A DNA stretch of 64,000 nt, taken from Loripinus fragilis. Lineage: Eukaryota; Mollusca; Bivalvia; Lucinida; Lucinidae. The notes below the pieces were generated by a model. The model was given only the letters and a program-made list of their open reading frames with translations, searched no databases and was not told the DNA's origin. Of the stretch, positions 1,218 through 52,157 are shown in pieces (positions within the stretch are counted from its first letter, which is position 1; every line of letters begins with the position of its first letter). The position numbers and the translations under genes were made by a program. The stretch lies in the NCBI GenBank assembly GCA_964019695.1, contig CAXHUL010000494.1, positions 16,707 to 80,706 on the forward strand, given 5' to 3'.

Positions 1218-1234
1218 ATTTATACCACTTACTT

Positions 1235-1289
1235 TGTGTCTGAAGTAGAGCAGCTTCACTGATGAGTGCCTGATGCTGGACGAAACACA
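1235..1289 (+). ncRNA. Hammerhead ribozyme motif, type III, copy 1 (described in full)
   Basis: Seen directly: stem III 3' strand TGTGT 1235-1239; cleavage triplet GTC ending at C1240 (predicted cut 1240/1241); stem I TGAAG 1241-1245 pairing with CTTCA 1254-1258 round an 8-nt loop; core CTGATGA 1259-1265; stem II GT(G)CC 1266-1270 pairing with GGAC 1278-1281, with G1268 bulged; core GAA 1282-1284; stem III 5' strand ACACA 1285-1289, all five pairing with 1235-1239. Every core position required by the family (C3 to A9, G12-A13-A14, A15.1-U16.1, H17=C) is present and in register. Both flanks join stem III, so it is type III. Family knowledge: hammerheads cut tandem transcripts into monomers with 5'-OH and 2',3'-cyclic phosphate ends. 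Weak points: the bulge in stem II and a stem III of only 5 bp. Activity is inferred. Confidence 0.87.
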
Positions 1290-1496
1290 TCATTTTATTC
1301 TAATCATGATCTACACTGCTAGTTCTGAATGTGAAATATTCGGTAATTTACATGCTACCAAAATGGCCAGAGTGGGAAAGATTGGAGACCTAGGTCTAGA
1401 TTTAATGCCCATAGCATAATGGAAATTGCTCATCCTCTTTTTTGATGAAACTATATCCCAAATTTGAAATTTCTGAAAAGACTGTAAGTAAAGATT

Positions 1497-1515
1497 ACTC
1501 ATTAGAACGGCCTCG
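1497..1515 (-). repeat. 19-bp internal motif, copy (iv), inverted
   Basis: Minus-strand CGAGGCCGTTCTAATGAGT, two differences from copy (i). It lies ~210 bp downstream of the ribozyme core. Confidence 0.75.
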
Positions 1516-1634
1516 TCGAACGAGAAATATCACAACCCACTTAAGCATATAATACGAGTATATGTGTGAAAGTGCTTCATTGGGGGTTAGGTAACTAAAT
1601 GAGCTTTAATAACTGTGTTATATCATTATCTATG

Positions 1635-1653
1635 TGAGGCGGTTCTAATGAGT
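1635..1653 (+). repeat. 19-bp internal motif TGAGGCGGTTCTAATGAGT, copy (i)
   Basis: First of three plus-strand copies of this motif in each monomer. A near-complementary copy lies 138 bp earlier at 1497-1515, so the two could pair in RNA over 17 of 19 positions. Confidence 0.8.
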
Positions 1654-1676
1654 AGCTTCTAAAACAATTTTGAGTG

Positions 1677-1695
1677 TGAGGCGACTCTAATGAGT
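1677..1695 (+). repeat. 19-bp internal motif, copy (ii), GACT variant
   Basis: TGAGGCGACTCTAATGAGT: two differences from copy (i), starting 42 bp after it. Present in all monomers. Confidence 0.8.
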
Positions 1696-1757
1696 ACCAA
1701 ACAATACTACTGTTTGCGTGGTCGAAATAAGAACAAAATTTGATCTCGGGTGAAGCT

Positions 1758-1769
1758 GGGGGGGGGGGG
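1758..1769 (+). repeat. Poly-G tract, length-variable (11-16 G) among monomers
   Basis: Shown for monomer 1. Counts for monomers 0 to 25: 11, 12, 13, 12, 14, 14, 13, 11, 15, 14, 13, 12, 13, 13, 12, 13, 16, 12, 13, 12, 11, 13, 12, 15, 11, 13. It is the only routinely length-variable site of the monomer. A minus-strand 88-89-aa ORF crossing it opens only at 13 or 16 G, which marks that ORF as an accident. Slippage in the genome or in sequencing could both cause the variation. Confidence 0.9.
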
Positions 1770-1966
1770 TGGCTGCAGTTGATTTGTTTAGCTGAAAAAG
1801 TTTAAGTTTGTCTTCAAATAAGTACAGCCTCGACCCGGTGAGTTGAACAGCCAAATACAATTGAATTTTATTGGTCTAAGCAATGAGGCCAGGGAACCTG
1901 CTTGGGGGAATGGTCCCGACCAGTCCATGCGGATCCTCATCATTATTCCTTTAAGTGTCATCTCTA

Positions 1967-1985
1967 TGAGGCGGTTCTAATGAGT
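1967..1985 (+). repeat. 19-bp internal motif, copy (iii)
   Basis: Exact match to copy (i), starting 290 bp after copy (ii), preceded by CTCTA. Confidence 0.8.
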
Positions 1986-2285
1986 GTAAGTATCCTAAGA
2001 GTGTTTTAATAAATACCCATATGCTAAGTCACCATACTTCTACAGTTAAAGTGAGTAAGCACTCATAGCACATTTCAGTAGAAAAGGGAATACAATCACA
2101 AAAATCAACTTGCACAGCAGTGCTAGCCAGTCTGCAAAAACGGAGTATCACGGTCAGCCTGCTCGGATTGATTAGTCAAATCCTGGTCAAAACTGTTTGT
2201 GTATGGCCATTTAACTGCATTTTCTGGTATATAATGCAATTTGAGTCTTTCCTCGAGAGAACCAGGCTTTAAAAATGATTTTAAG

Positions 2286-2342
2286 AAAAAATTAAAATTT
2301 AAACTAAAATTCAATAAAATTTTAAAATTTAAATTTAAATTT
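2286..2342. other. AT-only block of the monomer
   Basis: A ~57-bp stretch that is almost entirely A and T, with AAATTT and TTTAAA palindromes, just left of the removable segment in each monomer. Likely easily melted or bent; no function is shown. Confidence 0.6.
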
Positions 2343-2464
2343 CTTCCAAAAATAATTTCAAATTATTTCTATTTTGGTTCCTGATCTGTGTGCGAAATTT
2401 CATCTGAATTCATTGAAAAATGACTGTTTTACAAAGATTTTCGTTTTTTTCGCCTACTCTCTTA

Positions 2465-2936
2465 TAGGGTTCGGTGCACAATTAATCGGTCCCATTCAAC
2501 TCCATGTAAAAAGGCAGAATTCGAGCATCTGCAATTTTTTCCAGGACATTGCTTGGACTTTTTTCTGTCTGTGAGTGGCAAGATCTGTCATTCACCTATC
2601 AAAAAAGTGAAAAGACAACCTACCTTGATAATCTCGTTTTCTCAGCATTCTCCGTTCTTCGGGGAACAGTCAAAAAATCCGGGCTGAAATCCGACCTGCG
2701 TCAGACGTTACCTGGGGAGTGCGCCGGGGAGTCTGTGACAAAATAGTCCACACAAAGATGCATTTTTCTGCATCAGCCTGACAAACATAGACCAATGTTG
2801 AATCACATGTACATTTAAAGTCGAATAAAGCACCCATTTACGCCATAAAGGGCCCAGAAACGGCAAGTGCTAAATTTCTAAAGGTACTATTTTCGTGGGC
2901 TACCAAACCGGAAGACTGTAATTGTGTACTAACACC
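2465..2936. mobile_element. Removable 472-bp segment with imperfect inverted ends (MITE-like), shown for monomer 1
   Basis: Present in 23 monomers, absent from three (monomers 0, 15, 20). Its ends are imperfect inverted repeats: 2461-2484 against the complement of 2919-2942 match at 17 of 24 positions, including a run of eight (CACAATTA). The three losses have different junctions but all lie within ~8 bp at the left and ~6 bp at the right, as expected for excision of one defined unit rather than random deletion. The array itself also stops at this right edge (53805). No convincing target duplication is visible, so the family is unassigned. It contains an AATAAA at 2824-2829. Confidence 0.55.
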
Positions 2937-3392
2937 TTCAAGAATCTGCAAATTTTCGAATTTTTAAATTTTGTCTCTGTGACATATCAAACTCATATAG
3001 TTAAGCAAATAATCGTCCAAAAAGACTAACTCAGGCACCAAAAAGCGATACAAATCTAGGATTTTATATGTGACCCCCCTCACAAGCTGACACAAGCAAA
3101 TGCTCAATTATTCAAACTAGTCTGATGAAAAAGTTCATAGTTTCAATTATTTCAATGAATCTCAATAACCCAAAAGCAAAAAAGAAAGTTTAGGCATCGG
3201 TAAGAGTCATTAAAGGATAATCTCATACAAACTTTAGTTACAAAATTTAAAAACTGAAGCTAAAAAATCAAATTTTAAAGTGATTTTAAGCAAAATCGCG
3301 AACAGTTTTGAATCACATTCAAATTTGCTCCCAAAAAACCAAGCTACGTTGCACCCAAGCATGCTGAAAACAGCAATTTATACCACTTACTT

Positions 3393-3447
3393 TGTGTCTG
3401 AAGTAGAGCAGCTTCACTGATGAGTGCCTGATGCTGGACGAAACACA
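3393..3447 (+). ncRNA. Hammerhead ribozyme motif, copy 2
   Basis: Identical 55-nt motif; predicted cut after C3398. Confidence 0.86.
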
Positions 3448-5557
3448 TCATTTTATTCTAATCATGATCTACACTGCTAGTTCTGAATGTGAAATATTCG
3501 GTAATTTACATGCTACCAAAATGGCCAGAGTGGGAAAGATTGGAGACCTAGGTCTAGATTTAATGCCCATAGCATAATGGAAATTGCTCATCCTCTTTTT
3601 TGATGAAACTATATCCCAAATTTGAAATTTCTGAAAAGACTGTAAGTAAAGATTACTCATTAGAACGGCCTCGTCGAACGAGAAATATCACAACCCACTT
3701 AAGCATATAATACGAGTATATGTGTGAAAGTGCTTCATTGGGGGTTAGGTAACTAAATGAGCTTTAATAACTGTGTTATATCATTATCTATGTGAGGCGG
3801 TTCTAATGAGTAGCTTCTAAAACAATTTTGAGTGTGAGGCGACTCTAATGAGTACCAAACAATACTACTGTTTGCGTGGTCGAAATAAGAACAAAATTTG
3901 ATCTCGGGTGAAGCTGGGGGGGGGGGGGTGGCTGCAGTTGATTTGTTTAGCTGAAAAAGTTTAAGTTTGTCTTCAAATAAGTACAGCCTCGACCCGGTGA
4001 GTTGAACAGCCAAATACAATTGAATTTTATTGGTCTAAGCAATGAGGCCAGGGAACCTGCTTGGGGGAATGGTCCCGACCAGTCCATGCGGATCCTCATC
4101 ATTATTCCTTTAAGTGTCATCTCTATGAGGCGGTTCTAATGAGTGTAAGTATCCTAAGAGTGTTTTAATAAATACCCATATGCTAAGTCACCATACTTCT
4201 ACAGTTAAAGTGAGTAAGCACTCATAGCACATTTCAGTAGAAAAGGGAATACAATCACAAAAATCAACTTGCACAGCAGTGCTAGCCAGTCTGCAAAAAC
4301 GGAGTATCACGGTCAGCCTGCTCGGATTGATTAGTCAAATCCTGGTCAAAACTGTTTGTGTATGGCCATTTAACTGCATTTTCTGGTATATAATGCAATT
4401 TGAGTCTTTCCTCGAGAGAACCAGGCTTTAAAAATGATTTTAAGAAAAAATTAAAATTTAAACTAAAATTCAATAAAATTTTAAAATTTAAATTTAAATT
4501 TCTTCCAAAAATAATTTCAAATTATTTCTATTTTGGTTCCTGATCTGTGTGCGAAATTTCATCTGAATTCATTGAAAAATGACTGTTTTACAAAGATTTT
4601 CGTTTTTTTCGCCTACTCTCTTATAGGGTTCGGTGCACAATTAATCGGTCCCATTCAACTCCATGTAAAAAGGCAGAATTCGAGCATCTGCAATTTTTTC
4701 CAGGACATTGCTTGGACTTTTTTCTGTCTGTGAGTGGCAAGATCTGTCATTCACCTATCAAAAAAGTGAAAAGACAACCTACCTTGATAATCTCGTTTTC
4801 TCAGCATTCTCCGTTCTTCGGGGAACAGTCAAAAAATCCGGGCTGAAATCCGACCTGCGTCAGACGTTACCTGGGGAGTGCGCCGGGGAGTCTGTGACAA
4901 AATAGTCCACACAAAGATGCATTTTTCTGCATCAGCCTGACAAACATAGACCAATGTTGAATCACATGTACATTTAAAGTCGAATAAAGCACCCATTTAC
5001 GCCATAAAGGGCCCAGAAACGGCAAGTGCTAAATTTCTAAAGGTACTATTTTCGTGGGCTACCAAACCGGAAGACTGTAATTGTGTACTAACACCTTCAA
5101 GAATCTGCAAATTTTCGAATTTTTAAATTTTGTCTCTGTGACATATCAAACTCATATAGTTAAGCAAATAATCGTCCAAAAAGACTAACTCAGGCACCAA
5201 AAAGCGATACAAATCTAGGATTTTATATGTGACCCCCCTCACAAGCTGACACAAGCAAATGCTCAATTATTCAAACTAGTCTGATGAAAAAGTTCATAGT
5301 TTCAATTATTTCAATGAATCTCAATAACCCAAAAGCAAAAAAGAAAGTTTAGGCATCGGTAAGAGTCATTAAAGGATAATCTCATACAAACTTTAGTTAC
5401 AAAATTTAAAAACTGAAGCTAAAAAATCAAATTTTAAAGTGATTTTAAGCAAAATCGCGAACAGTTTTGAATCACATTCAAATTTGCTCCCAAAAAACCA
5501 AGCTACGTTGCACCCAAGCATGCTGAAAACAGCAATTTATACCACTTACTTTGTGTC
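3399..5557 (+). repeat. Monomer 2 (2159 bp, G13)
   Basis: Full-length; no variant against the majority seen by eye. Confidence 0.95.
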
Positions 5558-5606
5558 TGAAGTAGAGCAGCTTCACTGATGAGTGCCTGATGCTGGACGA
5601 AACACA
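5552..5606 (+). ncRNA. Hammerhead ribozyme motif, copy 3
   Basis: Identical motif; predicted cut after C5557. Confidence 0.86.
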
Positions 5607-7715
5607 TCATTTTATTCTAATCATGATCTACACTGCTAGTTCTGAATGTGAAATATTCGGTAATTTACATGCTACCAAAATGGCCAGAGTGGGAAAGATT
5701 GGAGACCTAGGTCTAGATTTAATGCCCATAGCATAATGGAAATTGCTCATCCTCTTTTTTGATGAAACTATATCCCAAATTTGAAATTTCTGAAAAGACT
5801 GTAAGTAAAGATTACTCATTAGAATGGCCTCGTCGAACGAGAAATATCACAACCCACTTAAGCATATAATACGAGTATATGTGTGAAAGTGCTTCATTGG
5901 GGGTTAGGTAACTAAATGAGCTTTAATAACTGTGTTATATCATTATCTATGTGAGGCGGTTCTAATGAGTAGCTTCTAAAACAATTTTGAGTGTGAGGCG
6001 ACTCTAATGAGTACCAAACAATACTACTGTTTGCGTGGTCGAAATAAGAACAAAATTTGATCTCGGGTGAAGCTGGGGGGGGGGGGTGGCTGCAGTTGAT
6101 TTGTTTAGCTGAAAAAGTTTAAGTTTGTCTTCAAATAAGTACAGCCTCGACCCGGTGAGTTGAACAGCCAAATACAATTGAATTTTATTGGTCTAAGCAA
6201 TGAGGCCAGGGAACCTGCTTGGGGGAATGGTCCCGACCAGTCCATGCGGATCCTCATCATTATTCCTTTAAGTGTCATCTCTATGAGGCGGTTCTAATGA
6301 GTGTAAGTATCCTAAGAGTGTTTTAATAAATACCCATATGCTAAGTCACCATACTTCTACAGTTAAAGTGAGTAAGCACTCATAGCACATTTCAGTAGAA
6401 AAGGGAATACAATCACAAAAATCAACTTGCACAGCAGTGCTAGCCAGTCTGCAAAAACGGAGTATCACGGTCAGCCTGCTCGGATTGATTAGTCAAATCC
6501 TGGTCAAAACTGTTTGTGTATGGCCATTTAACTGCATTTTCTGGTATATAATGCAATTTGAGTCTTTCCTCGAGAGAACCAGGCTTTAAAAATGATTTTA
6601 AGAAAAAATTAAAATTTAAACTAAAATTCAATAAAATTTTAAAACTTAAATTTAAATTTCTTCCAAAAATAATTTCAAATTATTTCTATTTTGGTTCCTG
6701 ATCTGTGTGCGAAATTTCATCTGAATTCATTGAAAAATGACTGTTTTACAAAGATTTTCGTTTTTTTCGCCTACTCTCTTATAGGGTTCGGTGCACAATT
6801 AATCGGTCCCATTCAACTCCATGTAAAAAGGCAGAATTCGAGCATCTGCAATTTTTTCCAGGACATTGCTTGGACTTTTTTCTGTCTGTGAGTGGCAAGA
6901 TCTGTCATTCACCTATCAAAAAAGTGAAAAGACAACCTACCTTGATAATCTCGTTTTCTCAGCATTCTCCGTTCTTCGGGGAACAGTCAAAAAATCCGGG
7001 CTGAAATCCGACCTGCGTCAGACGTTACCTGGGGAGTGCGCCGGGGAGTCTGTGACAAAATAGTCCACACAAAGATGCATTTTTCTGCATCAGCCTGACA
7101 AACATAGACCAATGTTGAATCACATGTACATTTAAAGTCGAATAAAGCACCCATTTACGCCATAAAGGGCCCAGAAACGGCAAGTGCTAAATTTCTAAAG
7201 GTACTATTTTCGTGGGCTACCAAACCGGAAGACTGTAATTGTGTACTAACACCTTCAAGAATCTGCAAATTTTCGAATTTTTAAATTTTGTCTCTGTGAC
7301 ATATCAAACTCATATAGTTAAGCAAATAATCGTCCAAAAAGACTAACTCAGGCACCAAAAAGCGATACAAATCTAGGATTTTATATGTGACCCCCCTCAC
7401 AAGCTGACACAAGCAAATGCTCAATTATTCAAACTAGTCTGATGAAAAAGTTCATAGTTTCAATTATTTCAATGAATCTCAATAACCCAAAAGCAAAAAA
7501 GAAAGTTTAGGCATCGGTAAGAGTCATTAAAGGATAATCTCATACAAACTTTAGTTACAAAATTTAAAAACTGAAGCTAAAAAATCAAATTTTAAAGTGA
7601 TTTTAAGCAAAATCGCGAACAGTTTTGAATCACATTCAAATTTGCTCCCAAAAAACCAAGCTACGTTGCACCCAAGCATGCTGAAAACAGCAATTTATAC
7701 CACTTACTTTGTGTC
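5558..7715 (+). repeat. Monomer 3 (2158 bp, G12)
   Basis: Full-length. Variants: T at 5825 (majority C) inside the minus-strand 19-bp motif, and C at 6645 (majority T), the latter shared only with monomer 8. Confidence 0.95.
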
Positions 7716-7764
7716 TGAAGTAGAGCAGCTTCACTGATGAGTGCCTGATGCTGGACGAAACACA
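7710..7764 (+). ncRNA. Hammerhead ribozyme motif, copy 4
   Basis: Identical motif; predicted cut after C7715. Confidence 0.86.
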
Positions 7765-9875
7765 TCATTTTATTCTAATCATGATCTACACTGCTAGTTC
7801 TGAATGTGAAATATTCGGTAATTTACATGCTACCAAAATGGCCAGAGTGGGAAAGATTGGAGACCTAGGACTAGATTTAATGCCCATAGCATAATGGAAA
7901 TTGCTCATCCTCTTTTTTGATGAAACTATATCCCAAATTTGAAATTTCTGAAAAGACTGTAAGTAAAGATTACTCATTAGAACGGCCTCGTCGAACGAGA
8001 AATATCACAACCCACTTAAGCATATAATACGAGTATATGTGTGAAAGTGCTTCATTGGGGGTTAGGTAACTAAATGAGCTTTAATAACTGTGTTATATCA
8101 TTATCTATGTGAGGCGGTTCTAATGAGTAGCTTCTAAAACAATTTTGAGTGTGAGGCGACTCTAATGAGTACCAAACAATACTACTGTTTGCGTGGTCGA
8201 AATAAGAACAAAATTTGATCTCGGGTGAAGCTGGGGGGGGGGGGGGTGGCTGCAGTTGATTTGTTTAGCTGAAAAAGTTTAAGTTTGTCTTCAAATAAGT
8301 ACAGCCTCGACCCGGTGAGTTGAACAGCCAAATACAATTGAATGTTATTGGTCTAAGCAATGAGGCCAGGGAACCTGCTTGGGGGAATGGTCCCGACCAG
8401 TCCATGCGGATCCTCATCATTATTCCTTTAAGTGTCATCTCTATGAGGCGGTTCTAATGAGTGTAAGTATCCTAAGAGTGTTTTAATAAATACCCATATG
8501 CTAAGTCACCATACTTCTACAGTTAAAGTGAGTAAGCACTCATAGCACATTTCAGTAGAAAAGGGAATACAATCACAAAAATCAACTTGCACAGCAGTGC
8601 TAGCCAGTCTGCAAAAACGGAGTATCACGGTCAGCCTGCTCGGATTGATTAGTCAAATCCTGGTCAAAACTGTTTGTGTATGGCCATTTAACTGCATTTT
8701 CTGGTATATAATGCAATTTGAGTCTTTCCTCGAGAGAACCAGGCTTTAAAAATGATTTTAAGAAAAAATTAAAATTTAAAATAAAATTCAATAAAATTTT
8801 AAAATTTAAATTTAAATTTCTTCCAAAAATAATTTCAAATTATTTCTATTTTGGTTCCTGATCTGTGTGCGAAATTTCATCTGAATTCATTGAAAAATGA
8901 CTGTTTTACAAAGATTTTCGTTTTTTTCGCCTACTCTCTTATAGGGTTCGGTGCACAATTAATCGGTCCCATTCAACTCCATGTAAAAAGGCAGAATTCG
9001 AGCATCTGCAATTTTTTCCAGGACATTGCTTGGACTTTTTTCTGTCTGTGAGTGGCAAGATCTGTCATTCACCTATCAAAAAAGTGAAAAGACAACCTAC
9101 CTTGATAATCTCGTTTTCTCAGCATTCTCCGTTCTTCGGGGAACAGTCAAAAAATCCGGGCTGAAATCCGACCTGCGTCAGACGTTACCTGGGGAGTGCG
9201 CCGGGGAGTCTGTGACAAAATAGTCCACACAAAGATGCATTTTTCTGCATCAGCCTGACAAACATAGACCAATGTTGAATCACATGTACATTTAAAGTCG
9301 AATAAAGCACCCATTTACGCCATAAAGGGCCCAGAAACGGCAAGTGCTAAATTTCTAAAGGTACTATTTTCGTGGGCTACCAAACCGGAAGACTGTAATT
9401 GTGTACTAACACCTTCAAGAATCTGCAAATTTTCGAATTTTTAAATTTTGTCTCTGTGACATATCAAACTCATATAGTTAAGCAAATAATCGTCCAAAAA
9501 GACTAACTCAGGCACCAAAAAGCGATACAAATCTAGGATTTTATATGTGACCCCCCTCACAAGCTGACACAAGCAAATGCTCAATTATTCAAACTAGTCT
9601 GATGAAAAAGTTCATAGTTTCAATTATTTCAATGAATCTCAATAACCCAAAAGCAAAAAAGAAAGTTTAGGCATCGGTAAGAGTCATTAAAGGATAATCT
9701 CATACAAACTTTAGTTACAAAATTTAAAAACTGAAGCTAAAAAATCAAATTTTAAAGTGATTTTAAGCAAAATCGCGAACAGTTTTGAATCACATTCAAA
9801 TTTGCTCCCAAAAAACCAAGCTACGTTGCACCCAAGCATGCTGAAAACAGCAATTTATACCACTTACTTTGTGTC
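7716..9875 (+). repeat. Monomer 4 (2160 bp, G14)
   Basis: Full-length. A at 7870 (T) and G at 8344 (T) are shared with monomers 5 and 9, as is the G14 tract. A at 8781 (C) is private. Confidence 0.95.
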
Positions 9876-9924
9876 TGAAGTAGAGCAGCTTCACTGATGA
9901 GTGCCTGATGCTGGACGAAACACA
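9870..9924 (+). ncRNA. Hammerhead ribozyme motif, copy 5
   Basis: Identical motif; predicted cut after C9875. Confidence 0.86.
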
Positions 9925-12035
9925 TCATTTTATTCTAATCATGATCTACACTGCTAGTTCTGAATGTGAAATATTCGGTAATTTACATGCTACCAAAATG
10001 GCCAGAGTGGGAAAGATTGGAGACCTAGGACTAGATTTAATGCCCATAGCATAATGGAAATTGCTCATCCTCTTTTTTGATGAAACTATATCCCAAATTT
10101 GAAATTTCTGAAAAGACTGTAAGTAAAGATTACTCATTAGAACGGCCTCGTCGAACGAGAAATATCACAACCCACTTAAGCATATAATACGAGTATATGT
10201 GTGAAAGTGCTTCATTGGGGGTTAGGTAACTAAATGAGCTTTAATAACTGTGTTATATCATTATCTATGTGAGGCGGTTCTAATGAGTAGCTTCTAAAAC
10301 AATTTTGAGTGTGAGGCGACTCTAATGAGTACCAAACAATACTACTGTTTGCGTGGTCGAAATAAGAACAAAATTTGATCTCGGGTGAAGCTGGGGGGGG
10401 GGGGGGTGGCTGCAGTTGATTTGTTTAGCTGAAAAAGTTTAAGTTTGTCTTCAAATAAGTACAGCCTCGACCCGGTGAGTTGAACAGCCAAATACAATTG
10501 AATGTTATTGGTCTAAGCAATGAGGCCAGGGAACCTGCTTGGGGGAATGGTCCCGACCAGTCCATGCGGATCCTCATCATTATTCCTTTAAGTGTCATCT
10601 CTATGAGGCGGTTCTAATGAGTGTAAGTATCCTAAGAGTGTTTTAATAAATACCCATATGCTAAGTCACCATACTTCTACAGTTAAAGTGAGTAAGCACT
10701 CATAGCACATTTCAGTAGAAAAGGGAATACAATCACAAAAATCAACTTGCACAGCAGTGCTAGCCAGTCTGCAAAAACGGAGTATCACGGTCAGCCTGCT
10801 CGGATTGATTAGTCAAATCCTGGTCAAAACTGTTTGTGTATGGCCATTTAACTGCATTTTCTGGTATATAATGCAATTTGAGTCTTTCCTCGAGAGAACC
10901 AGGCTTTAAAAATGATTTTAAGAAAAAATTAAAATTTAAACTAAAATTCAATAAAATTTTAAAATTTAAATTTAAATTTCTTCCAAAAATAATTTCAAAT
11001 TATTTCTATTTTGGTTCCTGATCTGTGTGCGAAATTTCATCTGAATTCATTGAAAAATGACTGTTTTACAAAGATTTTCGTTTTTTTCGCCTACTCTCTT
11101 ATAGGGTTCGGTGCACAATTAATCGGTCCCATTCAACTCCATGTAAAAAGGCAGAATTCGAGCATCTGCAATTTTTTCCAGGACATTGCTTGGACTTTTT
11201 TCTGTCTGTGAGTGGCAAGATCTGTCATTCACCTATCAAAAAAGTGAAAAGACAACCTACCTTGATAATCTCGTTTTCTCAGCATTCTCCGTTCTTCGGG
11301 GAACAGTCAAAAAATCCGGGCTGAAATCCGACCTGCGTCAGACGTTACCTGGGGAGTGCGCCGGGGAGTCTGTGACAAAATAGTCCACACAAAGATGCAT
11401 TTTTCTGCATCAGCCTGACAAACATAGACCAATGTTGAATCACATGTACATTTAAAGTCGAATAAAGCACCCATTTACGCCATAAAGGGCCCAGAAACGG
11501 CAAGTGCTAAATTTCTAAAGGTACTATTTTCGTGGGCTACCAAACCGGAAGACTGTAATTGTGTACTAACACCTTCAAGAATCTGCAAATTTTCGAATTT
11601 TTAAATTTTGTCTCTGTGACATATCAAACTCATATAGTTAAGCAAATAATCGTCCAAAAAGACTAACTCAGGCACCAAAAAGCGATACAAATCTAGGATT
11701 TTATATGTGACCCCCCTCACAAGCTGACACAAGCAAATGCTCAATTATTCAAACTAGTCTGATGAAAAAGTTCATAGTTTCAATTATTTCAATGAATCTC
11801 AACAACCCAAAAGCAAAAAAGAAAGTTTAGGCATCGGTAAGAGTCATTAAAGGATAATCTCATACAAACTTTAGTTACAAAATTTAAAAACTGAAGCTAA
11901 AAAATCAAATTTTAAAGTGATTTTAAGCAAAATCGCGAACAGTTTTGAATCACATTCAAATTTGCTCCCAAAAAACCAAGCTACGTTGCACCCAAGCATG
12001 CTGAAAACAGCAATTTATACCACTTACTTTGTGTC
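9876..12035 (+). repeat. Monomer 5 (2160 bp, G14)
   Basis: Full-length. A at 10030 and G at 10504 are shared with monomers 4 and 9. C at 11803 (T) is shared only with monomer 9. Confidence 0.95.
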
Positions 12036-12084
12036 TGAAGTAGAGCAGCTTCACTGATGAGTGCCTGATGCTGGACGAAACACA
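12030..12084 (+). ncRNA. Hammerhead ribozyme motif, copy 6
   Basis: Identical motif; predicted cut after C12035. Confidence 0.86.
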
Positions 12085-14194: not shown

Positions 14195-14243
14195 TGAAGT
14201 AGAGCAGCTTCACTGATGAGTGCCTGATGCTGGACGAAACACA
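14189..14243 (+). ncRNA. Hammerhead ribozyme motif, copy 7
   Basis: Identical motif; predicted cut after C14194. Confidence 0.86.
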
Positions 14244-16351: not shown

Positions 16352-16400
16352 TGAAGTAGAGCAGCTTCACTGATGAGTGCCTGATGCTGGACGAAACACA
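16346..16400 (+). ncRNA. Hammerhead ribozyme motif, copy 8
   Basis: Identical motif; predicted cut after C16351. Confidence 0.86.
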
Positions 16401-18512: not shown

Positions 18513-18561
18513 TGAAGTAGAGCAGCTTCACTGATGAGTGCCTGATGCTGGACGAAACACA
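18507..18561 (+). ncRNA. Hammerhead ribozyme motif, copy 9
   Basis: Identical motif; predicted cut after C18512. Confidence 0.86.
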
Positions 18562-20672: not shown

Positions 20673-20721
20673 TGAAGTAGAGCAGCTTCACTGATGAGTG
20701 CCTGATGCTGGACGAAACACA
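20667..20721 (+). ncRNA. Hammerhead ribozyme motif, copy 10
   Basis: Identical motif; predicted cut after C20672. Confidence 0.86.
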
Positions 20722-22831: not shown

Positions 22832-22880
22832 TGAAGTAGAGCAGCTTCACTGATGAGTGCCTGATGCTGGACGAAACACA
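22826..22880 (+). ncRNA. Hammerhead ribozyme motif, copy 11
   Basis: Identical motif; predicted cut after C22831. Confidence 0.86.
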
Positions 22881-29307: not shown

Positions 29308-29356
29308 TGAAGTAGAGCAGCTTCACTGATGAGTGCCTGATGCTGGACGAAACACA
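29302..29356 (+). ncRNA. Hammerhead ribozyme motif, copy 14
   Basis: Identical motif; predicted cut after C29307. Confidence 0.86.
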
Positions 29357-31465: not shown

Positions 31466-31514
31466 TGAAGTAGAGCAGCTTCACTGATGAGTGCCTGATG
31501 CTGGACGAAACACA
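31460..31514 (+). ncRNA. Hammerhead ribozyme motif, copy 15
   Basis: Identical motif; predicted cut after C31465. Confidence 0.86.
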
Positions 31515-33152: not shown

Positions 33153-33201
33153 TGAAGTAGAGCAGCTTCACTGATGAGTGCCTGATGCTGGACGAAACAC
33201 A
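33147..33201 (+). ncRNA. Hammerhead ribozyme motif, copy 16
   Basis: Identical motif at the 3' end of segment-deleted monomer 15; predicted cut after C33152. Confidence 0.86.
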
Positions 33202-35314: not shown

Positions 35315-35363
35315 TGAAGTAGAGCAGCTTCACTGATGAGTGCCTGATGCTGGACGAAACACA
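35309..35363 (+). ncRNA. Hammerhead ribozyme motif, copy 17
   Basis: Identical motif; predicted cut after C35314. Confidence 0.86.
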
Positions 35364-37472: not shown

Positions 37473-37521
37473 TGAAGTAGAGCAGCTTCACTGATGAGTG
37501 CCTGATGCTGGACGAAACACA
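37467..37521 (+). ncRNA. Hammerhead ribozyme motif, copy 18
   Basis: Identical motif; predicted cut after C37472. Confidence 0.86.
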
Positions 37522-39631: not shown

Positions 39632-39680
39632 TGAAGTAGAGCAGCTTCACTGATGAGTGCCTGATGCTGGACGAAACACA
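39626..39680 (+). ncRNA. Hammerhead ribozyme motif, copy 19
   Basis: Identical motif; predicted cut after C39631. Confidence 0.86.
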
Positions 39681-41789: not shown

Positions 41790-41838
41790 TGAAGTAGAGC
41801 AGCTTCACTGATGAGTGCCTGATGCTGGACGAAACACA
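41784..41838 (+). ncRNA. Hammerhead ribozyme motif, copy 20
   Basis: Identical motif; predicted cut after C41789. Confidence 0.86.
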
Positions 41839-43469
41839 TCATTTTATTCTAATCATGATCTACACTGCTAGTTCTGAATGTGAAATATTCGGTAATTTAC
41901 ATGCTACCAAAATGGCCAGAGTGGGAAAGATTGGAGACCTAGGTCTAGATTTAATGCCCATAGCATAATGGAAATTGCTCATCCTCTTTTTTGATGAAAC
42001 TATATCCCAAATTTGAAATTTCTGAAAAGACTGTAAGTAAAGATTACTCATTAGAACGGCCTCGTCGAACGAGAAATATCACAACCCACTTAAGCATATA
42101 ATACGAGTATATGTGTGAAAGTGCTTCATTGGGGGTTAGGTAACTAAATGAGCTTTAATAACTGTGTTATATCATTATCTATGTGAGGCGGTTCTAATGA
42201 GTAGCTTCTAAAACAATTTTTAATGTGAGGCGACTCTAATGAGTACCAAACAATACTACTGTTTGCGTGGTCGAAATAAGAACAAAATTTGATCTCGGGT
42301 GAAGCTGGGGGGGGGGGTGGCTGCAGTTGATTTGTTTAGCTGAAAAAGTTTAAGTTTGTCTTCAAATAAGTACAGCCTCGACCCGGTGAGTTGAACAGCC
42401 AAATACAATATAATTTTATTGGTCTAAGCAATGAGGCCAGGGAACCTGCTTGGGGGAATGGTCCCGACCAGTCCATGCGGATCCTCATCATTATTCCTTT
42501 AAGTGTCATCTCTATGAGGCGGTTCTAATGAGTGTAAGTATCCTAAGAGTGTTTTAATAAATACCCATATGCTAAGTCACCATACTTCTACAGTTAAAGT
42601 GAGTAAGCACTCATAGCACATTTCAGTAGAAAAGGGAATACAATCACAAAAATCAACTTGCACAGCAGTGCTAGCCAGTCTGCAAAAACGGAGTATCACG
42701 GTCAGCCTGCTCGGATTGATTAGTCAAATCCTGGTCAAAACTGTTTGTGTATGGCCATTTAACTGCATTTTCTGGTATATAATGCAATTTGAGTCTTTCC
42801 TCGAGAGAACCAGGCTTTAAAAATGATTTTAAGAAAAAATTAAAATTTAAACTAAAATTCAATAAAATTTTAAAATTTAAATTTAAATTTCTTCCAAAAA
42901 TAATTTCAAATTATTTCTATTTTGGTTCCTGATCTGTGTGCGAAATTTCATCTGAATTCATTGAAAAATGACTGTTTTACAAAGATTTTCGTTTTTTTCG
43001 CCTACTCTTCAAGAATCTGCAAATTTTCGAATTTTTAAATTTTGTCTCTGTGACATATCAAACTCATATAGTTAAGCAAATAATCGTCCAAAAAGACTAA
43101 CTCAGGCACCAAAAAGCGATACAAATCTAGGATTTTATATGTGACCCCCCTCACAAGCTGACACAAGCAAATGCTCAATTATTCAAACTAGTCTGATGAA
43201 AAAGTTCATAGTTTCAATTATTTCAATGAATCTCAATAACCCAAAAGCAAAAAAGAAAGTTTAGGCATCGGTAAGAGTCATTAAAGGATAATCTCATACA
43301 AACTTTAGTTACAAAATTTAAAAACTGAAGCTAAAAAATCAAATTTTAAAGTGATTTTAAGCAAAATCGCGAACAGTTTTGAATCACATTCAAATTTGCT
43401 CCCAAAAAACCAAGCTACGTTGCACCCAAGCATGCTGAAAACAGCAATTTATACCACTTACTTTGTGTC
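41790..43469 (+). repeat. Monomer 20 (1680 bp, G11, segment-deleted)
   Basis: Lacks 477 bp of the removable segment (junction about 43008/43009). T 42221 and A 42223 match monomer 19; AT at 42410-42411 matches monomer 18, so this copy looks like a mosaic. Confidence 0.95.
43006..43009. other. Segment-loss junction 3 (477 bp missing)
   Basis: CCTACTCT joins TCAAG, with 2 bp (CT) of microhomology. Left edge is ~5 bp further out than in junction 2. Confidence 0.9.
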
Positions 43470-43518
43470 TGAAGTAGAGCAGCTTCACTGATGAGTGCCT
43501 GATGCTGGACGAAACACA
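43464..43518 (+). ncRNA. Hammerhead ribozyme motif, copy 21
   Basis: Identical motif at the 3' end of segment-deleted monomer 20; predicted cut after C43469. Confidence 0.86.
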
Positions 43519-45632
43519 TCATTTTATTCTAATCATGATCTACACTGCTAGTTCTGAATGTGAAATATTCGGTAATTTACATGCTACCAAAATGGCCAGA
43601 GTGGGAAAGATTGGAGACCTAGGTCTAGATTTAATGCCCATAGCATAATGGAAATTGCTCATCCTCTTTTTTGATGAAACTATATCCCAAATTTGAAATT
43701 TCTGAAAAGACTGTAAGTAAAGATTACTCATTAGAACGGCCTCGTCGAACGAGAAATATCACAACCCACTTAAGCATATAATACGAGTATATGTGTGAAA
43801 GTGCTTCATTGGGGGTTAGGTAACTAAATGAGCTTTAATAACTGTGTTATATCATTATCTATGTGAGGCGGTTCTAATGAGTAGCTTCTAAAACAATTTT
43901 GAGTGTGAGGCGACTCTAATGAGTACCAAACAATACTACTGTTTGCGTGGTCGAAATAAGAACAAAATTTGATCTCGGGTGAAGCTGGGGGGGGGGGGGT
44001 GGCTGCAGTTGATTTGTTTAGCTGAAAAAGTTTAAGTTTGTCTTCAAATAAGTACAGCCTCGACCCGGTGAGTTGAACAGCCAAATACAATTGAATTTTA
44101 TTGGTCTAAGCAATGAGGCCAGGGAACCTGCTTGGGGGAATGGTCCCGACCAGTCCATGCGGATCCTCATCATTATTCCTTTAAGTGTCATCTCTATGAG
44201 GCGGTTCTAATGAGTGTAAGTATCCTAAGAGTGTTTTAATAAATACCCATATGCTAAGTCACCATACTTCTACAGTTAAAGTGAGTAAGCACTCATAGCA
44301 CATTTCAGTAGAAAAGGGAATACAATCACAAAAATCAACTTGCACAGCAGTGCTAGCCAGTCTGCAAAAACGGAGTATCACGGTCAGCCTGCTCGGATTG
44401 ATTAGTCAAATCCTGGTCAAAACTGTTTGTGTATGGCCATTTAACTGCATTTTCTGGTATATAATGCAATTTGAGTCTTTCCTCGAGAGAACCAGGCTTT
44501 AAAAATGATTTTAAGAAAAAATTAAAATTTAAACTAAAATTCAATAAAATTTTAAAATTTAAATTTAAATTTCTTCCAAAAATAATTTCAAATTATTTCT
44601 ATTTTGGTTCCTGATCTGTGTGCGAAATTTCATCTGAATTCATTGAAAAATGACTGTTTTACAAAGATTTTCGTTTTTTTCGCCTACTCTCTTATAGGGT
44701 TCGGTGCACAATTAATCGGTCCCATTCAACTCCATGTAAAAAGGCAGAATTCGAGCATCTGCAATTTTTTCCAGGACATTGCTTGGACTTTTTTCTGTCT
44801 GTGAGTGGCAAGATCTGTCATTCACCTATCAAAAAAGTGAAAAGACAACCTACCTTGATAATCTCGTTTTCTCAGCATTCTCCGTTCTTCGGGGAACAGT
44901 CAAAAAATCCGGGCTGAAATCCGACCTGCGTCAGACGTTACCTGGGGAGTGCGCCGGGGAGTCTGTGACAAAATAGTCCACACAAAGATGCATTTTTCTG
45001 CATCAGCCTGACAAACATAGACCAATGTTGAATCACATGTACATTTAAAGTCGAATAAAGCACCCATTTACGCCATAAAGGGCCCAGAAACGGCAAGTGC
45101 TAAATTTCTAAAGGTACTATTTTCGTGGGCTACCAAACCGGAAGACTGTAATTGTGTACTAACACCTTCAAGAATCTGCAAATTTTCGAATTTTTAAATT
45201 TTGTCTCTGTGACATATCAAACTCATATAGTTAAGCAAATAATCGTCCAAAAAGACTAACTAACTCAGGCACCAAAAAGCGATACAAATCTAGGATTTTA
45301 TATGTGACCCCCCTCACAAGCTGACACAAGCAAATGCTCAATTATTCAAACTAGTCTGATGAAAAAGTTCATAGTTTCAATTATTTCAATGAATCTCAAT
45401 AACCCAAAAGCAAAAAAGAAAGTTTAGGCATCGGTAAGAGTCATTAAAGGATAATCTCATACAAACTTTAGTTACAAAATTTAAAAACTGAAGCTAAAAA
45501 ATCAAATTTTAAAGTGATTTTAAGCAAAATCGCGAACAGTTTTGAATCACATTCAAATTTGCTCCCAAAAAATAAAGCTACGTTGCACCCAAGCATGCTG
45601 AAAACAGCAATTTATACCACTTACTTTGTGTC
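43470..45632 (+). repeat. Monomer 21 (2163 bp, G13, CTAA duplication)
   Basis: Full-length with the only non-poly-G small indel seen: a tandem CTAA duplication within 45256-45263. Also TA at 45573-45574 (majority CC). Confidence 0.95.
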
Positions 45633-45681
45633 TGAAGTAGAGCAGCTTCACTGATGAGTGCCTGATGCTGGACGAAACACA
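45627..45681 (+). ncRNA. Hammerhead ribozyme motif, copy 22
   Basis: Identical motif although its monomer has a CC-to-TA change 53 nt upstream; predicted cut after C45632. Confidence 0.86.
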
Positions 45682-47790
45682 TCATTTTATTCTAATCATG
45701 ATCTACACTGCTAGTTCTGAATGTGAAATATTCGGTAATTTACATGCTACCAAAATGGCCAGAGTGGGAAAGATTGGAGACCTAGGTCTAGATTTAATGC
45801 CCATAGCATAATGGAAATTGCTCATCCTCTTTTTTGATGAAACTATATCCCAAATTTGAAATTTCTGAAAAGACTGTAAGTAAAGATTACTCATTAGAAC
45901 GGCCTCGTCGAACGAGAAATATCACAACCCACTTAAGCATATAATACGAGTATATGTGTGAAAGTGCTTCATTGGGGGTTAGGTAACTAAATGAGCTTTA
46001 ATAACTGTGTTATATCATTATCTATGTGAGGCGGTTCTAATGAGTAGCTTCTAAAACAATTTTGAGTGTGAGGCGACTCTAATGAGTACCAAACAATACT
46101 ACTGTTTGCGTGGTCGAAATAAGAACAAAATTTGATCTCGGGTGAAGCTGGGGGGGGGGGGTGGCTGCAGTTGATTTGTTTAGCTGAAAAAGTTTAAGTT
46201 TGTCTTCAAATAAGTACAGCCTCGACCCGGTGAGTTGAACAGCCAAATACAATTGAATTTTATTGGTCTAAGCAATGAGGCCAGGGAACCTGCTTGGGGG
46301 AATGGTCCCGACCAGTCCATGCGGATCCTCATCATTATTCCTTTAAGTGTCATCTCTATGAGGCGGTTCTAATGAGTGTAAGTATCCTAAGAGTGTTTTA
46401 ATAAATACCCATATGCTAAGTCACCATACTTCTACAGTTAAAGTGAGTAAGCACTCATAGCACATTTCAGTAGAAAAGGGAATACAATCACAAAAATCAA
46501 CTTGCACTGCAGTGCTAGCCAGTCTGCAAAAACGGAGTATCACGGTCAGCCTGCTCGGATTGATTAGTCAAATCCTGGTCAAAACTGTTTGTGTATGGCC
46601 ATTTAACTGCATTTTCTGGTATATAATGCAATTTGAGTCTTTCCTCGAGAGAACCAGGCTTTAAAAATGATTTTAAGAAAAAATTAAAATTTAAACTAAA
46701 ATTCAATAAAATTTTAAAATTTAAATTTAAATTTCTTCCAAAAATAATTTCAAATTATTTCTATTTTGGTTCCTGATCTGTGTGCGAAATTTCATCTGAA
46801 TTCATTGAAAAATGACTGTTTTACAAAGATTTTCGTTTTTTTCGCCTACTCTCTTATAGGGTTCGGTGCACAATTAATCGGTCCCATTCAACTCCATGTA
46901 AAAAGGCAGAATTCGAGCATCTGCAATTTTTTCCAGGACATTGCTTGGACTTTTTTCTGTCTGTGAGTGGCAAGATCTGTCATTCACCTATCAAAAAAGT
47001 GAAAAGACAACCTACCTTGATAATCTCGTTTTCTCAGCATTCTCCGTTCTTCGGGGAACAGTCAAAAAATCCGGGCTGAAATCCGACCTGCGTCAGACGT
47101 TACCTGGGGAGTGCGCCGGGGAGTCTGTGACAAAATAGTCCACACAAAGATGCATTTTTCTGCATCAGCCTGACAAACATAGACCAATGTTGAATCACAT
47201 GTACATTTAAAGTCGAATAAAGCACCCATTTACGCCATAAAGGGCCCAGAAACGGCAAGTGCTAAATTTCTAAAGGTACTATTTTCGTGGGCTACCAAAC
47301 CGGAAGACTGTAATTGTGTACTAACACCTTCAAGAATCTGCAAATTTTCGAATTTTTAAATTTTGTCTCTGTGACATATCAAACTCATATAGTTAAGCAA
47401 ATAATCGTCCAAAAAGACTAACTCAGGCACCAAAAAGCGATACAAATCTAGGATTTTATATGTGACCCCCCTCACAAGCTGACACAAGCAAATGCTCAAT
47501 TATTCAAACTAGTCTGATGAAAAAGTTCATAGTTTCAATTATTTCAATGAATCTCAATAACCCAAAAGCAAAAAAGAAAGTTTAGGCATCGGTAAGAGTC
47601 ATTAAAGGATAATCTCATACAAACTTTAGTTACAAAATTTAAAAACTGAAGCTAAAAAATCAAATTTTAAAGTGATTTTAAGCAAAATCGCGAACAGTTT
47701 TGAATCACATTCAAATTTGCTCCCAAAAAACCAAGCTACGTTGCACCCAAGCATGCTGAAAACAGCAATTTATACCACTTACTTTGTGTC
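45633..47790 (+). repeat. Monomer 22 (2158 bp, G12)
   Basis: Full-length; private T at 46508 (A). Confidence 0.95.
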
Positions 47791-47839
47791 TGAAGTAGAG
47801 CAGCTTCACTGATGAGTGCCTGATGCTGGACGAAACACA
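47785..47839 (+). ncRNA. Hammerhead ribozyme motif, copy 23
   Basis: Identical motif; predicted cut after C47790. Confidence 0.86.
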
Positions 47840-49951
47840 TCATTTTATTCTAATCATGATCTACACTGCTAGTTCTGAATGTGAAATATTCGGTAATTTA
47901 CATGCTACCAAAATGGCCAGAGTGGGAAAGATTGGAGACCTAGGTCTAGATTTAATGCCCATAGCATAATGGAAATTGCTCATCCTCTTTTTTGATGAAA
48001 CTATATCCCAAATTTGAAATTTCTGAAAAGACTGTAAGTAAAGATTACTCATTAGAACGGCCTCGTCGAACGAGAAATATCACAACCCACTTAAGCATAT
48101 AATACGAGTATATGTGTGAAAGTGCTTCATTGGGGGTTAGGTAACTAAATGAGCTTTAATAACTGTGTTATATCATTATCTATGTGAGGCGGTTCTAATG
48201 AGTAGCTTCTAAAACAATTTTGAGTGTGAGGCGACTCTAATGAGTACCAAACAATACTACTGTTTGCGTGGTCGAAATAAGAACAAAATTTGATCTCGGG
48301 TGAAGCTGGGGGGGGGGGGGGGTGGCTGCAGTTGATTTGTTTAGCTGAAAAAGTTTAAGTTTGTCTTCAAATAAGTACAGCCTCGACCCGGTGAGTTGAA
48401 CAGCCAAATACAATTGAATTTTATTGGTCTAAGCAATGAGGCCAGGGAACCTGCTTGGGGGAATGGTCCCGACCAGTCCATGCGGATCCTCATCATTATT
48501 CCTTTAAGTGTCATCTCTATGAGGCGGTTCTAATGAGTGTAAGTATCCTAAGAGTGTTTTAATAAATACCCATATGCTAAGTCACCATACTTCTACAGTT
48601 AAAGTGAGTAAGCACTCATAGCACATTTCAGTAGAAAAGGGAATACAATCACAAAAATCAACTTGCACAGCAGTGCTAGCCAGTCTGCAAAAACGGAGTA
48701 TCACGGTCAGCCTGCTCGGATTGATTAGTCAAATCCTGGTCAAAACTGTTTGTGTATGGCCATTTAACTGCATTTTCTGGTATATAATGCAATTTGAGTC
48801 TTTCCTCGAGAGAACCAGGCTTTAAAAATGATTTTAAGAAAAAATTAAAATTTAAACTAAAATTCAATAAAATTTTAAAATTTAAATTTAAATTTCTTCC
48901 AAAAATAATTTCAAATTATTTCTATTTTGGTTCCTGATCTGTGTGCGAAATTTCATCTGAATTCATTGAAAAATGACTGTTTTACAAAGATTTTCGTTTT
49001 TTTCGCCTACTCTCTTATAGGGTTCGGTGCACAATTAATCGGTCCCATTCAACTCCATGTAAAAAGGCAGAATTCGAGCATCTGCAATTTTTTCCAGGAC
49101 ATTGCTTGGACTTTTTTCTGTCTGTGAGTGGCAAGATCTGTCATTCACCTATCAAAAAAGTGAAAAGACAACCTACCTTGATAATCTCGTTTTCTCAGCA
49201 TTCTCCGTTCTTCGGGGAACAGTCAAAAAATCCGGGCTGAAATCCGACCTGCGTCAGACGTTACCTGGGGAGTGCGCCGGGGAGTCTGTGACAAAATAGT
49301 CCACACAAAGATGCATTTTTCTGCATCAGCCTGACAAACATAGACCAATGTTGAATCACATGTACATTTAAAGTCGAATAAAGCACCCATTTACGCCATA
49401 AAGGGCCCAGAAACGGCAAGTGCTAAATTTCTAAAGGTACTATTTTCGTGGGCTACCAAACCGGAAGACTGTAATTGTGTACTAACACCTTCAAGAATCT
49501 GCAAATTTTCGAATTTTTAAATTTTGTCTCTGTGACATATCAAACTCATATAGTTAAGCAAATAATCGTCCAAAAAGACTAACTCAGGCACCAAAAAGCG
49601 ATACAAATCTAGGATTTTATATGTGACCCCCCTCACAAGCTGACACAAGCAAATGCTCAATTATTCAAACTAGTCTGATGAAAAAGTTCATAGTTTCAAT
49701 TATTTCAATGAATCTCAATAACCCAAAAGCAAAAAAGAAAGTTTAGGCATCGGTAAGAGTCATTAAAGGATAATCTCATACAAACTTTAGTTACAAAATT
49801 TAAAAACTGAAGCTAAAAAATCAAATTTTAAAGTGATTTTAAGCAAAATCGCGAACAGTTTTGAATCACATTCAAATTTGCTCCCAAAAAACCAAGCTAC
49901 GTTGCACCCAAGCATGCTGAAAACAGCAATTTATACCACTTACTTTGTGTC
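47791..49951 (+). repeat. Monomer 23 (2161 bp, G15)
   Basis: Full-length; long G tract, otherwise majority sequence by eye. Confidence 0.95.
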
Positions 49952-50000
49952 TGAAGTAGAGCAGCTTCACTGATGAGTGCCTGATGCTGGACGAAACACA
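49946..50000 (+). ncRNA. Hammerhead ribozyme motif, copy 24
   Basis: Identical motif; predicted cut after C49951. Confidence 0.86.
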
Positions 50001-52108
50001 TCATTTTATTCTAATCATGATCTACACTGCTAGTTCTGAATGTGAAATATTCGGTAATTTACATGCTACCAAAATGGCCAGAGTGGGAAAGATTGGAGAC
50101 CTAGGTCTAGATTTAATGCCCATAGCATAATGGAAATTGCTCATCCTCTTTTTTGATGAAACTATATCCCAAATTTGAAATTTCTGAAAAGACTGTAAGT
50201 AAAGATTACTCATTAGAACGGCCTCGTCGAACGAGAAATATCACAACCCACTTAAGCATATAATACGAGTATATGTGTGAAAGTGCTTCATTGGGGGTTA
50301 GGTAACTAAATGAGCTTTAATAACTGTGTTATATCATTATCTATGTGAGGCGGTTCTAATGAGTAGCTTCTAAAACAATTTTGAGTGTGAGGCGACTCTA
50401 ATGAGTACCAAACAATACTACTGTTTGCGTGGTCGAAATAAGAACAAAATTTGATCTCGGGTGAAGCTGGGGGGGGGGGTGGCTGCAGTTGATTTGTTTA
50501 GCTGAAAAAGTTTAAGTTTGTCTTCAAATAAGTACAGCCTCGACCCGGTGAGTTGAACAGCCAAATACAATTGAATTTTATTGGTCTAAGCAATGAGGCC
50601 AGGGAACCTGCTTGGGGGAATGGTCCCGACCAGTCCATGCGGATCCTCATCATTATTCCTTTAAGTGTCATCTCTATGAGGCGGTTCTAATGAGTGTAAG
50701 TATCCTAAGAGTGTTTTAATAAATACCCATATGCTAAGTCACCATACTTCTACAGTTAAAGTGAGTAAGCACTCATAGCACATTTCAGTAGAAAAGGGAA
50801 TACAATCACAAAAATCAACTTGCACAGCAGTGCTAGCCAGTCTGCAAAAACGGAGTATCACGGTCAGCCTGCTCGGATTGATTAGTCAAATCCTGGTCAA
50901 AACTGTTTGTGTATGGCCATTTAACTGCATTTTCTGGTATATAATGCAATTTGAGTCTTTCCTCGAGAGAACCAGGCTTTAAAAATGATTTTAAGAAAAA
51001 ATTAAAATTTAAACTAAAATTCAATAAAATTTTAAAATTTAAATTTAAATTTCTTCCAAAAATAATTTCAAATTATTTCTATTTTGGTTCCTGATCTGTG
51101 TGCGAAATTTCATCTGAATTCATTGAAAAATGACTGTTTTACAAAGATTTTCGTTTTTTTCGCCTACTCTCTTATAGGGTTCGGTGCACAATTAATCGGT
51201 CCCATTCAACTCCATGTAAAAAGGCAGAATTCGAGCATCTGCAATTTTTTCCAGGACATTGCTTGGACTTTTTTCTGTCTGTGAGTGGCAAGATCTGTCA
51301 TTCACCTATCAAAAAAGTGAAAAGACAACCTACCTTGATAATCTCGTTTTCTCAGCATTCTCCGTTCTTCGGGGAACAGTCAAAAAATCCGGGCTGAAAT
51401 CCGACCTGCGTCAGACGTTACCTGGGGAGTGCGCCGGGGAGTCTGTGACAAAATAGTCCACACAAAGATGCATTTTTCTGCATCAGCCTGACAAACATAG
51501 ACCAATGTTGAATCACATGTACATTTAAAGTCGAATAAAGCACCCATTTACGCCATAAAGGGCCCAGAAACGGCAAGTGCTAAATTTCTAAAGGTACTAT
51601 TTTCGTGGGCTACCAAACCGGAAGACTGTAATTGTGTACTAACACCTTCAAGAATCTGCAAATTTTCGAATTTTTAAATTTTGTCTCTGTGACATATCAA
51701 ACTCATATAGTTAAGCAAATAATCGTCCAAAAAGACTAACTCAGGCACCAAAAAGCGATACAAATCTAGGATTTTATATGTGACCCCCCTCACAAGCTGA
51801 CACAAGCAAATGCTCAATTATTCAAACTAGTCTGATGAAAAAGTTCATAGTTTCAATTATTTCAATGAATCTCAATAACCCAAAAGCAAAAAAGAAAGTT
51901 TAGGCATCGGTAAGAGTCATTAAAGGATAATCTCATACAAACTTTAGTTACAAAATTTAAAAACTGAAGCTAAAAAATCAAATTTTAAAGTGATTTTAAG
52001 CAAAATCGCGAACAGTTTTGAATCACATTCAAATTTGCTCCCAAAAAACCAAGCTACGTTGCACCCAAGCATGCTGAAAACAGCAATTTATACCACTTAC
52101 TTTGTGTC
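49952..52108 (+). repeat. Monomer 24 (2157 bp, G11)
   Basis: Full-length; short G tract, otherwise majority sequence by eye. Confidence 0.95.
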
Positions 52109-52157
52109 TGAAGTAGAGCAGCTTCACTGATGAGTGCCTGATGCTGGACGAAACACA
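52103..52157 (+). ncRNA. Hammerhead ribozyme motif, copy 25 (last)
   Basis: Identical motif; predicted cut after C52108. It is the last ribozyme before the array breaks off, so everything 3' of it would stay attached to any read-through into the foldback element. Confidence 0.86.

Follow-up and report, generated by a model that had tools for sequence, protein, structure and literature searches.

Repeats that carry hammerhead ribozyme motifs are known from several settings, described here after parts of the cited papers. Plant long terminal repeat (LTR) retrozymes have type III hammerheads in their LTRs, a primer site, a polypurine tract and ~700 nt between hammerheads (PMC4918200). Metazoan non-LTR retrozymes, such as those of Mytilus, are without terminal repeats and have type I hammerheads and RNAs of ~170-400 nt (PMC7229834); animal ribozyme repeats have been explained as retroelements that use RNA circles (PMC7229834, PMC7761336). 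Circular RNAs of toad and termite resembling hepatitis delta virus (HDV), 1500-1700 nt long, have type III hammerheads, a delta antigen, a predicted rod fold and a ribozyme on both strands, and type III motifs have been reported in termite and fly genomes too (PMC7936874). In the Ac macrotransposons of maize, linked transposon ends mobilise the DNA between them, with an excision footprint and the 8-bp duplication of the Ac type (PMC9910405). Here, a type III hammerhead motif is described in every unit of a tandem array in the lucinid bivalve Loripinus fragilis, within a window of 64,000 nucleotides (the whole stretch of DNA analysed; GenBank assembly GCA_964019695.1, contig CAXHUL010000494.1, positions 16,707 to 80,706 of the forward strand). 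The 2159-bp unit consists of a 470-bp segment (BLOCK) and a 1689-bp segment (INT) that bears the motif. On balance, BLOCK is judged to be a DNA transposon, pairs of which move the INT between them as a non-coding composite mobile element.

This element resembles plant LTR retrozymes in its type III motif, terminal direct repeats, 4-bp target duplications, non-coding sequence and multimers (the latter proposed for the plant elements), but differs in its interior hammerhead, in that neither primer site nor polypurine tract was seen, in its 2159-nt unit and in its animal host (PMC4918200). With the Mytilus retrozymes it shares tandem non-coding hammerhead repeats of low G+C in a bivalve, whereas those have a type I motif and repeats a few hundred bp long (PMC7229834). 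HDV-like agents are alike in having type III hammerheads in animals and a size of similar order; unlike them, the unit has no long open reading frame (its longest stop-to-stop frame is 93 aa, and it is therefore taken as non-coding), and no hammerhead was found on its minus strand by RF00008, the Rfam type III model, or by a motif descriptor (PMC7936874). Finally, maize Ac macrotransposons share end-mobilised intervening DNA and footprints with the proposed element, but here the duplications are of 4 bp and the cargo is a tandem repeat found at many loci (PMC9910405). None of the plant LTR retrozymes, animal type I repeats or HDV-like agents as there described matches a bivalve mobile element whose 2159-nt unit has the type III motif in its interior, and no report of type III hammerheads in bivalve repeats was found in the openly licensed PMC literature. 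An earlier note on this DNA had called a 2.16-kb unit unusually long, which it is when set against the ribozyme repeats of the cited literature.

The motif spans 59 nt and occurs in 25 identical copies, exclusively on the plus strand, the first starting at 1233 and the last at 52101:

1233..1291, plus strand: hammerhead copy 1 of 25, type III, predicted cleavage after C1240
1235-1239/1285-1289: stem III of copy 1, 5 bp, open
GTC: cleavage triplet, predicted cut after C1240
1241-1245/1254-1258: stem I, 5 bp, 8-nt loop
1259-1265: core CTGATGA
1266-1267+1269-1270/1278-1281: stem II, 4 bp, G1268 bulged, 7-nt loop
1282-1284: core GAA
3391..3449, plus strand: hammerhead copy 2, the copy scored with Rfam (RF00008, 36.7 bits, E 1e-5)
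52101..52159, plus strand: hammerhead copy 25, the last

The core CUGANGA...GAAA, a UH cleavage site and the stem-III-open order are present, as type III requires, and the earlier note's hammerhead in every one of 25 monomers was confirmed together with its base assignments. In the Rfam check that the note had proposed, RF00008 aligned full-length to one monomer, but at 36.7 bits it stays below the gathering score of 48.5, which was reached nowhere in the window. There are 22 RF00008 matches elsewhere in the genome (L009-L030), the best of which, at 46.6 bits, also falls short. As the search, run at E up to 10, matched 7 of 14 control genomes too (none above the cut-off), the weakest matches are uninformative. 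A strict descriptor (helices of 5, 5 and 4 bp) matched the monomer once on the plus strand and never on the minus strand; it had no match on either strand of 3000 dinucleotide shuffles of the monomer, nor had a relaxed version (4, 4 and 3 bp). The absence from shuffles and the RF00008 match together indicate that the sequence match is not due to chance. In collections of genome contigs and of viral contigs the motif pattern had no match. A tRNA scan of the window likewise gave no tRNA.

The division of the unit into BLOCK and INT was seen because many of the genome copies found with RF00008 start at one same base of the monomer. The hammerhead lies outside BLOCK, and the array is organised as follows:

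1..53805, plus strand: tandem array of BLOCK-INT units, extending left to the contig start; its part in the window holds 25 hammerheads and 23 BLOCKs
2467..2936, plus strand: first complete BLOCK, 470 bp, GGGTTCGG...CTAACACC, with imperfect terminal inverted repeats (13/19 in register)
2937..4625, plus strand: first complete INT, 1689 bp, non-coding, hammerhead at INT 455-513
53336..53805, plus strand: terminal BLOCK closing the array on the right
53806..53809, plus strand: GAAA, right copy of the 4-bp duplication flanking the array (the left copy is at L060 on contig C496)

The array is longer than the span given earlier (1235..52157): it reaches 53805 and continues leftwards beyond the window. 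A 2.16-kb monomer throughout agrees with 22 of the 24 motif spacings (2157-2163 bp), the other two being 1680 and 1687 bp, but three units are without the 470-bp BLOCK. Monomers are otherwise near-identical, with 25 substitution columns of 2166 among the 24 aligned. A box like TGAGGCGGTTCTAATGAGT occurs in INT in three direct copies (3786-3811, 3828-3853, 4119-4144) and one inverted copy (3655-3677).

Beyond the window, complete dispersed copies have the structure BLOCK-INT-BLOCK (e.g. L036, L042, L048) and fixed outer ends, GGGTTCGGTGCACAATTA and TAATTGTGTACTAACACC, and tandem ones the structure (BLOCK-INT)n-BLOCK (L037, L049); several further copies are truncated or interrupted. In the 2-Gb genome, patterns allowing up to one mismatch were found 1373 times for INT (a count that leaves out the window array, which has two mismatches to the pattern), 1530 times for a 30-mer of the hammerhead, 1503 times for its adjacent 3' flank and 1761 times for BLOCK, with no match to the reversed-pattern control of any of them. 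The first 100 exact BLOCK places, on contigs C1-C3, form 52 clusters (same strand, gap limit 6.5 kb): 22 lone BLOCKs, 18 pairs, 8 arrays of at least three and 4 lone BLOCKs beside an exact INT, although mismatched BLOCKs are missed and some lone ones may have a partner. Another array, at 122.56-122.67 Mb of C1, has at least 51 hammerhead matches. Two further arrays differ in build. At C1:62250219-62357147, 35 exact INT matches lie ~3142 bp apart, ~1 kb above the usual unit, with no exact BLOCK among the matches listed; at C2:50382494-50396128, units of ~2.15 and ~1.68 kb alternate and every other unit has BLOCK, which makes a higher-order repeat of the form BLOCK-INT-INT.

Exact 4-bp flanking duplications were found at 14 of the 17 loci at which both outer ends were read (probability by chance ~7e-29). 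These loci are not a random sample, 12 having been found with RF00008 and 4 picked from the exact BLOCK list, besides the window array. The 14 comprise 8 dispersed elements (one a two-unit tandem), 3 arrays and 3 lone BLOCKs; by class, lone BLOCKs have exact duplications in 3/3 cases and elements plus arrays in 11/14:

L036: ATAA
L037: ACAC
L038: ATTA
L039: ATAC
L040: AGGC, right end beyond an insertion in BLOCK, checked against the BLOCK end
L041: AGTT, right end beyond an insertion in BLOCK, checked against the BLOCK end
L042: ATCT
L048: AGGG
Window array: GAAA
Array on C1 at 136.5 Mb: TTCA
Array on C1 at 42.0 Mb: ACCT
Lone BLOCK L031: AGTT
Lone BLOCK on C1 at 50.68 Mb: GTAT
Lone BLOCK on C1 at 75.86 Mb: GCAT

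Among the remaining loci, L045 and L049 agree at three of four bases and L034 has no match. At L038, a 1.1-kb inverted-repeat transposon (CAGGGTTTTACA...TGTAAAACCCTG; ~5271-6371 of the reversed locus) lies within INT, 6 bases of which are repeated at its ends, and L036:1237-1401, outside the element, has weak matches to mir-250 and MIR8742, below the gathering score.

The giant satellite of the earlier note is a real tandem array, but it belongs to a mobile element that is dispersed in the genome, has fixed ends and is flanked by 4-bp duplications; the array is a tandem form of it. An ordinary local satellite without mobility, in which the hammerhead-like motif would be a chance fossil, agrees with a motif about as conserved as its flank genome-wide (15/55 against 46/136 variable sites, p 0.40). 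Nevertheless, this explanation is already disfavoured by the fixed ends and target duplications at independent loci, by some 1500 copies of the motif 30-mer spread over many contigs and, as regards chance, by the 3000 shuffles from which the motif is absent; it is considered very improbable.

The units without BLOCK are informative as to how BLOCK behaves. Whereas BLOCK-bearing units read TACTCTCTTATA, BLOCK, TTCAAGAAT, the three BLOCK-less units show three different joins in one otherwise near-identical array:

757..800, plus strand: BLOCK-less junction 1, scar TAC joined to GAAT
32657..32715, plus strand: BLOCK-less junction 2, scar TACTCTCTTA joined to TTCAAGAAT
42979..43030, plus strand: BLOCK-less junction 3, scar TACTC joined to TTCAAGAAT

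All three scars lie within 9 bp to the left and 5 bp to the right of BLOCK, and that of junction 2 was found on C496 too (L053). Judged from the joins, these look like independent deletions bounded within a few bases of BLOCK, in the manner of transposase footprints. A fourth join, TTCTCTCTTCTA to GAAT, occurs elsewhere, at one locus comprising L017, L018 and L039 and at L047, and could alternatively be the site before BLOCK arrived. BLOCK as a spliced intron was also considered and is ruled out by the differing scars.

In the mechanism proposed, BLOCK would be a gene-less DNA transposon of 470 bp that landed in INT, a 1.69-kb tandem repeat bearing the type III motif. A transposase from elsewhere would then act on two BLOCKs in direct orientation, at their outer ends, so that BLOCK-INT-BLOCK and longer BLOCK-to-BLOCK stretches would transpose as a unit and become flanked by a 4-bp target duplication; lone BLOCKs would also move or drop out. 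Since any two BLOCKs of an array could serve as ends, one scheme would account for single elements, for multimers and for the lone BLOCKs that have duplications. In keeping with a composite transposon, the end sequences are found, with target duplications, both on lone BLOCKs and at the outside of larger units, and small-footprint excision is represented, as a sequence pattern, by the three different scars in one array. At the window locus, a GAAA-flanked insertion would have grown in situ to ~117 kb or more, with unequal exchange as the probable mechanism. This size assumes that the array of the window (at least 70.5 kb, C462:1-70511) and that of C496 (47.0 kb, C496:1-46978) are one array of ~54 units. 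On C496, a contig of which part was read, the array of BLOCK-INT units ends leftwards at a BLOCK start with GAAA just before it, and this common duplication suggests that the two contigs hold the two ends of one array. The hammerhead would ride as cargo, and transcripts of the array, if cut in each unit, could give RNAs of 2159 nt.

The main rival takes BLOCK as the LTR of a non-autonomous, hammerhead-bearing LTR retroelement like a plant LTR retrozyme, lone BLOCKs being solo LTRs and tandems arising by unequal exchange between LTRs or by rolling reverse transcription of a hammerhead-made circular RNA. Such an element would fit the direct terminal repeats, the 4-bp duplications (around lone BLOCKs too) and the multimers, as well as the identity of the 5' and 3' BLOCKs of one copy (92.2-99.8% in the six copies compared, 469/470 at best). 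Plant retrozymes, as far as PMC4918200 describes them, have 4-bp duplications as well, and multimers proposed to derive from RNA circles. The hammerhead here, however, is in INT, outside the repeat, and a single insertion holds just one, where a retrozyme has one in both terminal repeats. LTRs usually end in TG..CA, and BLOCK ends in GG..CC instead. The primer site for a tRNA 3' end begins with TGG, a triplet absent from the first 498 nt of INT on the plus strand and the first 118 nt on the minus strand; by eye no purine tract precedes BLOCK, and the primer site was not matched against a tRNA library. The LTR reading covers all observations save the scars and the missing primer and polypurine signals, and we know of no LTRs that drop out with different scars. 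The composite transposon is preferred to it because of the scars, the inverted ends in register (13/19, counted at the same offset, P ~2e-4), the GG..CC termini and the lack of TGG near the INT ends, but an LTR element is a serious, if less probable, explanation.

Several points weigh against the composite transposon. An LTR element, too, would give BLOCKs in direct pairs or alone and duplications of 4 bp, and no transposase or autonomous relative is known, no search for one having been made. By local alignment the inverted ends of BLOCK do not score above shuffles (18, against a 95th percentile of 25), and as single-stranded DNA BLOCK folds no better than shuffles (z -1.05). In addition, BLOCK within INT is flanked by TTCTA/TTCAA (in older copies) or TTATA/TTCAA, with no clean 4-bp duplication, which is unexplained if BLOCK is a transposon.

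As to ribozyme function, the earlier note had cautioned that 25 identical motifs are weak evidence for selection. This was borne out: the array is silent on selection because its monomers differ so little, and outside it, too, conservation of the motif does not clearly exceed that of its flanks. In order to sample copies regardless of the motif, 33 stretches on C1-C3 were picked by the INT pattern, and one was dropped as the element was not there. The core is kept in 28 of these 32 copies, and the core with all pairs in 24; the bulge site of stem II is G in 28/32 and T, which can give an unbulged stem, in 4/32. Divergence is 22/1760 (1.25%) in the motif and 92/4196 (2.2%) in the flanks (p 0.017, uncorrected for kinship among the copies), whereas the proportion of variable sites, given above, is similar. 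Across the genome, the motif and the 3' flank next to it were matched about equally often (1530 against 1503; the window array, with 0 mismatches to the motif and 1 to the flank, is within the limit for both), which speaks against function. Taken together, the comparison gives no clear difference that would point to purifying selection on the motif. Two candidate signals were rejected as ascertainment effects. One was an apparent decay of the window motif from a better ribozyme of the family, suggested by GTTCC in stem II of RF00008-ranked copies but not by the motif-blind sample, in which G prevails at that site. The other was a low motif divergence (2.3%, rank 2 of 73 windows), which the motif-blind site comparison and the match counts do not bear out.

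Energy folding is likewise unfavourable to function: at its minimum (-12.7 kcal/mol) the window motif does not form a hammerhead, for which the energy is -6.6 kcal/mol, whereas for the Rfam consensus a hammerhead is predicted. Although nearest-neighbour energies omit core and loop-loop contacts, the predicted folds speak against efficient hammerhead folding. Catalysis by the motif is plausible. These results bear on a further alternative, a large animal retrozyme, in which hammerhead-cut array transcripts would give 2159-nt circles as the transposition intermediate. Such a retrozyme would be consistent with a type III motif in each unit of the window array, with the core kept in most motif-blind copies and with multimers that have target duplications, but the minimum-energy folds and the lack of clear purifying selection weigh against it, and the multimers can be explained without RNA; it appears improbable. 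A further proposal, tentative and rather unlikely as a whole, is that a bivalve type III hammerhead has spread as cargo of the composite DNA transposon, dispersed by transposase and amplified in local arrays whose transcripts self-cleave to 2159-nt RNAs that may circularise.

To the right of the array, the window contains features of other kinds:

53806-55650: stretch between two inverted clusters of a 16-mer in tandem (GTCAACTCGTACCTTA and its complement), resembling a fold-back element
55643-57010: reverse transcriptase frame of 455 aa, truncated at its 5' end
58402-59053: 250-bp tandem unit, 2.6 copies, rich in AACGTA words
60690-62050: apparent direct duplication ~793 bp apart (tandem-repeat rows 60702/61495 and 61078/61871), with hairpins GATGAGACGGCTC...GAGCCGTCTCATC

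The reverse transcriptase frame has a 794-aa relative that is 99% identical, of which residues 345-794 alone match the window. The 120 relatives listed include bivalves (Mytilus, Pinctada) and bacterial bins of Thiodiazotropha and Sedimenticola, the latter presumably through host contamination.

The locus places a plant-like type III hammerhead in a mollusc and illustrates how a mobile element may become a satellite of ~100 kb. If the composite transposon explanation is true, the ribozyme repeat would have been mobilised as DNA instead of by reverse transcription, and a family with target duplications, scars of BLOCK loss and no visible signals of reverse transcription would offer a DNA route for the spread of ribozymes.

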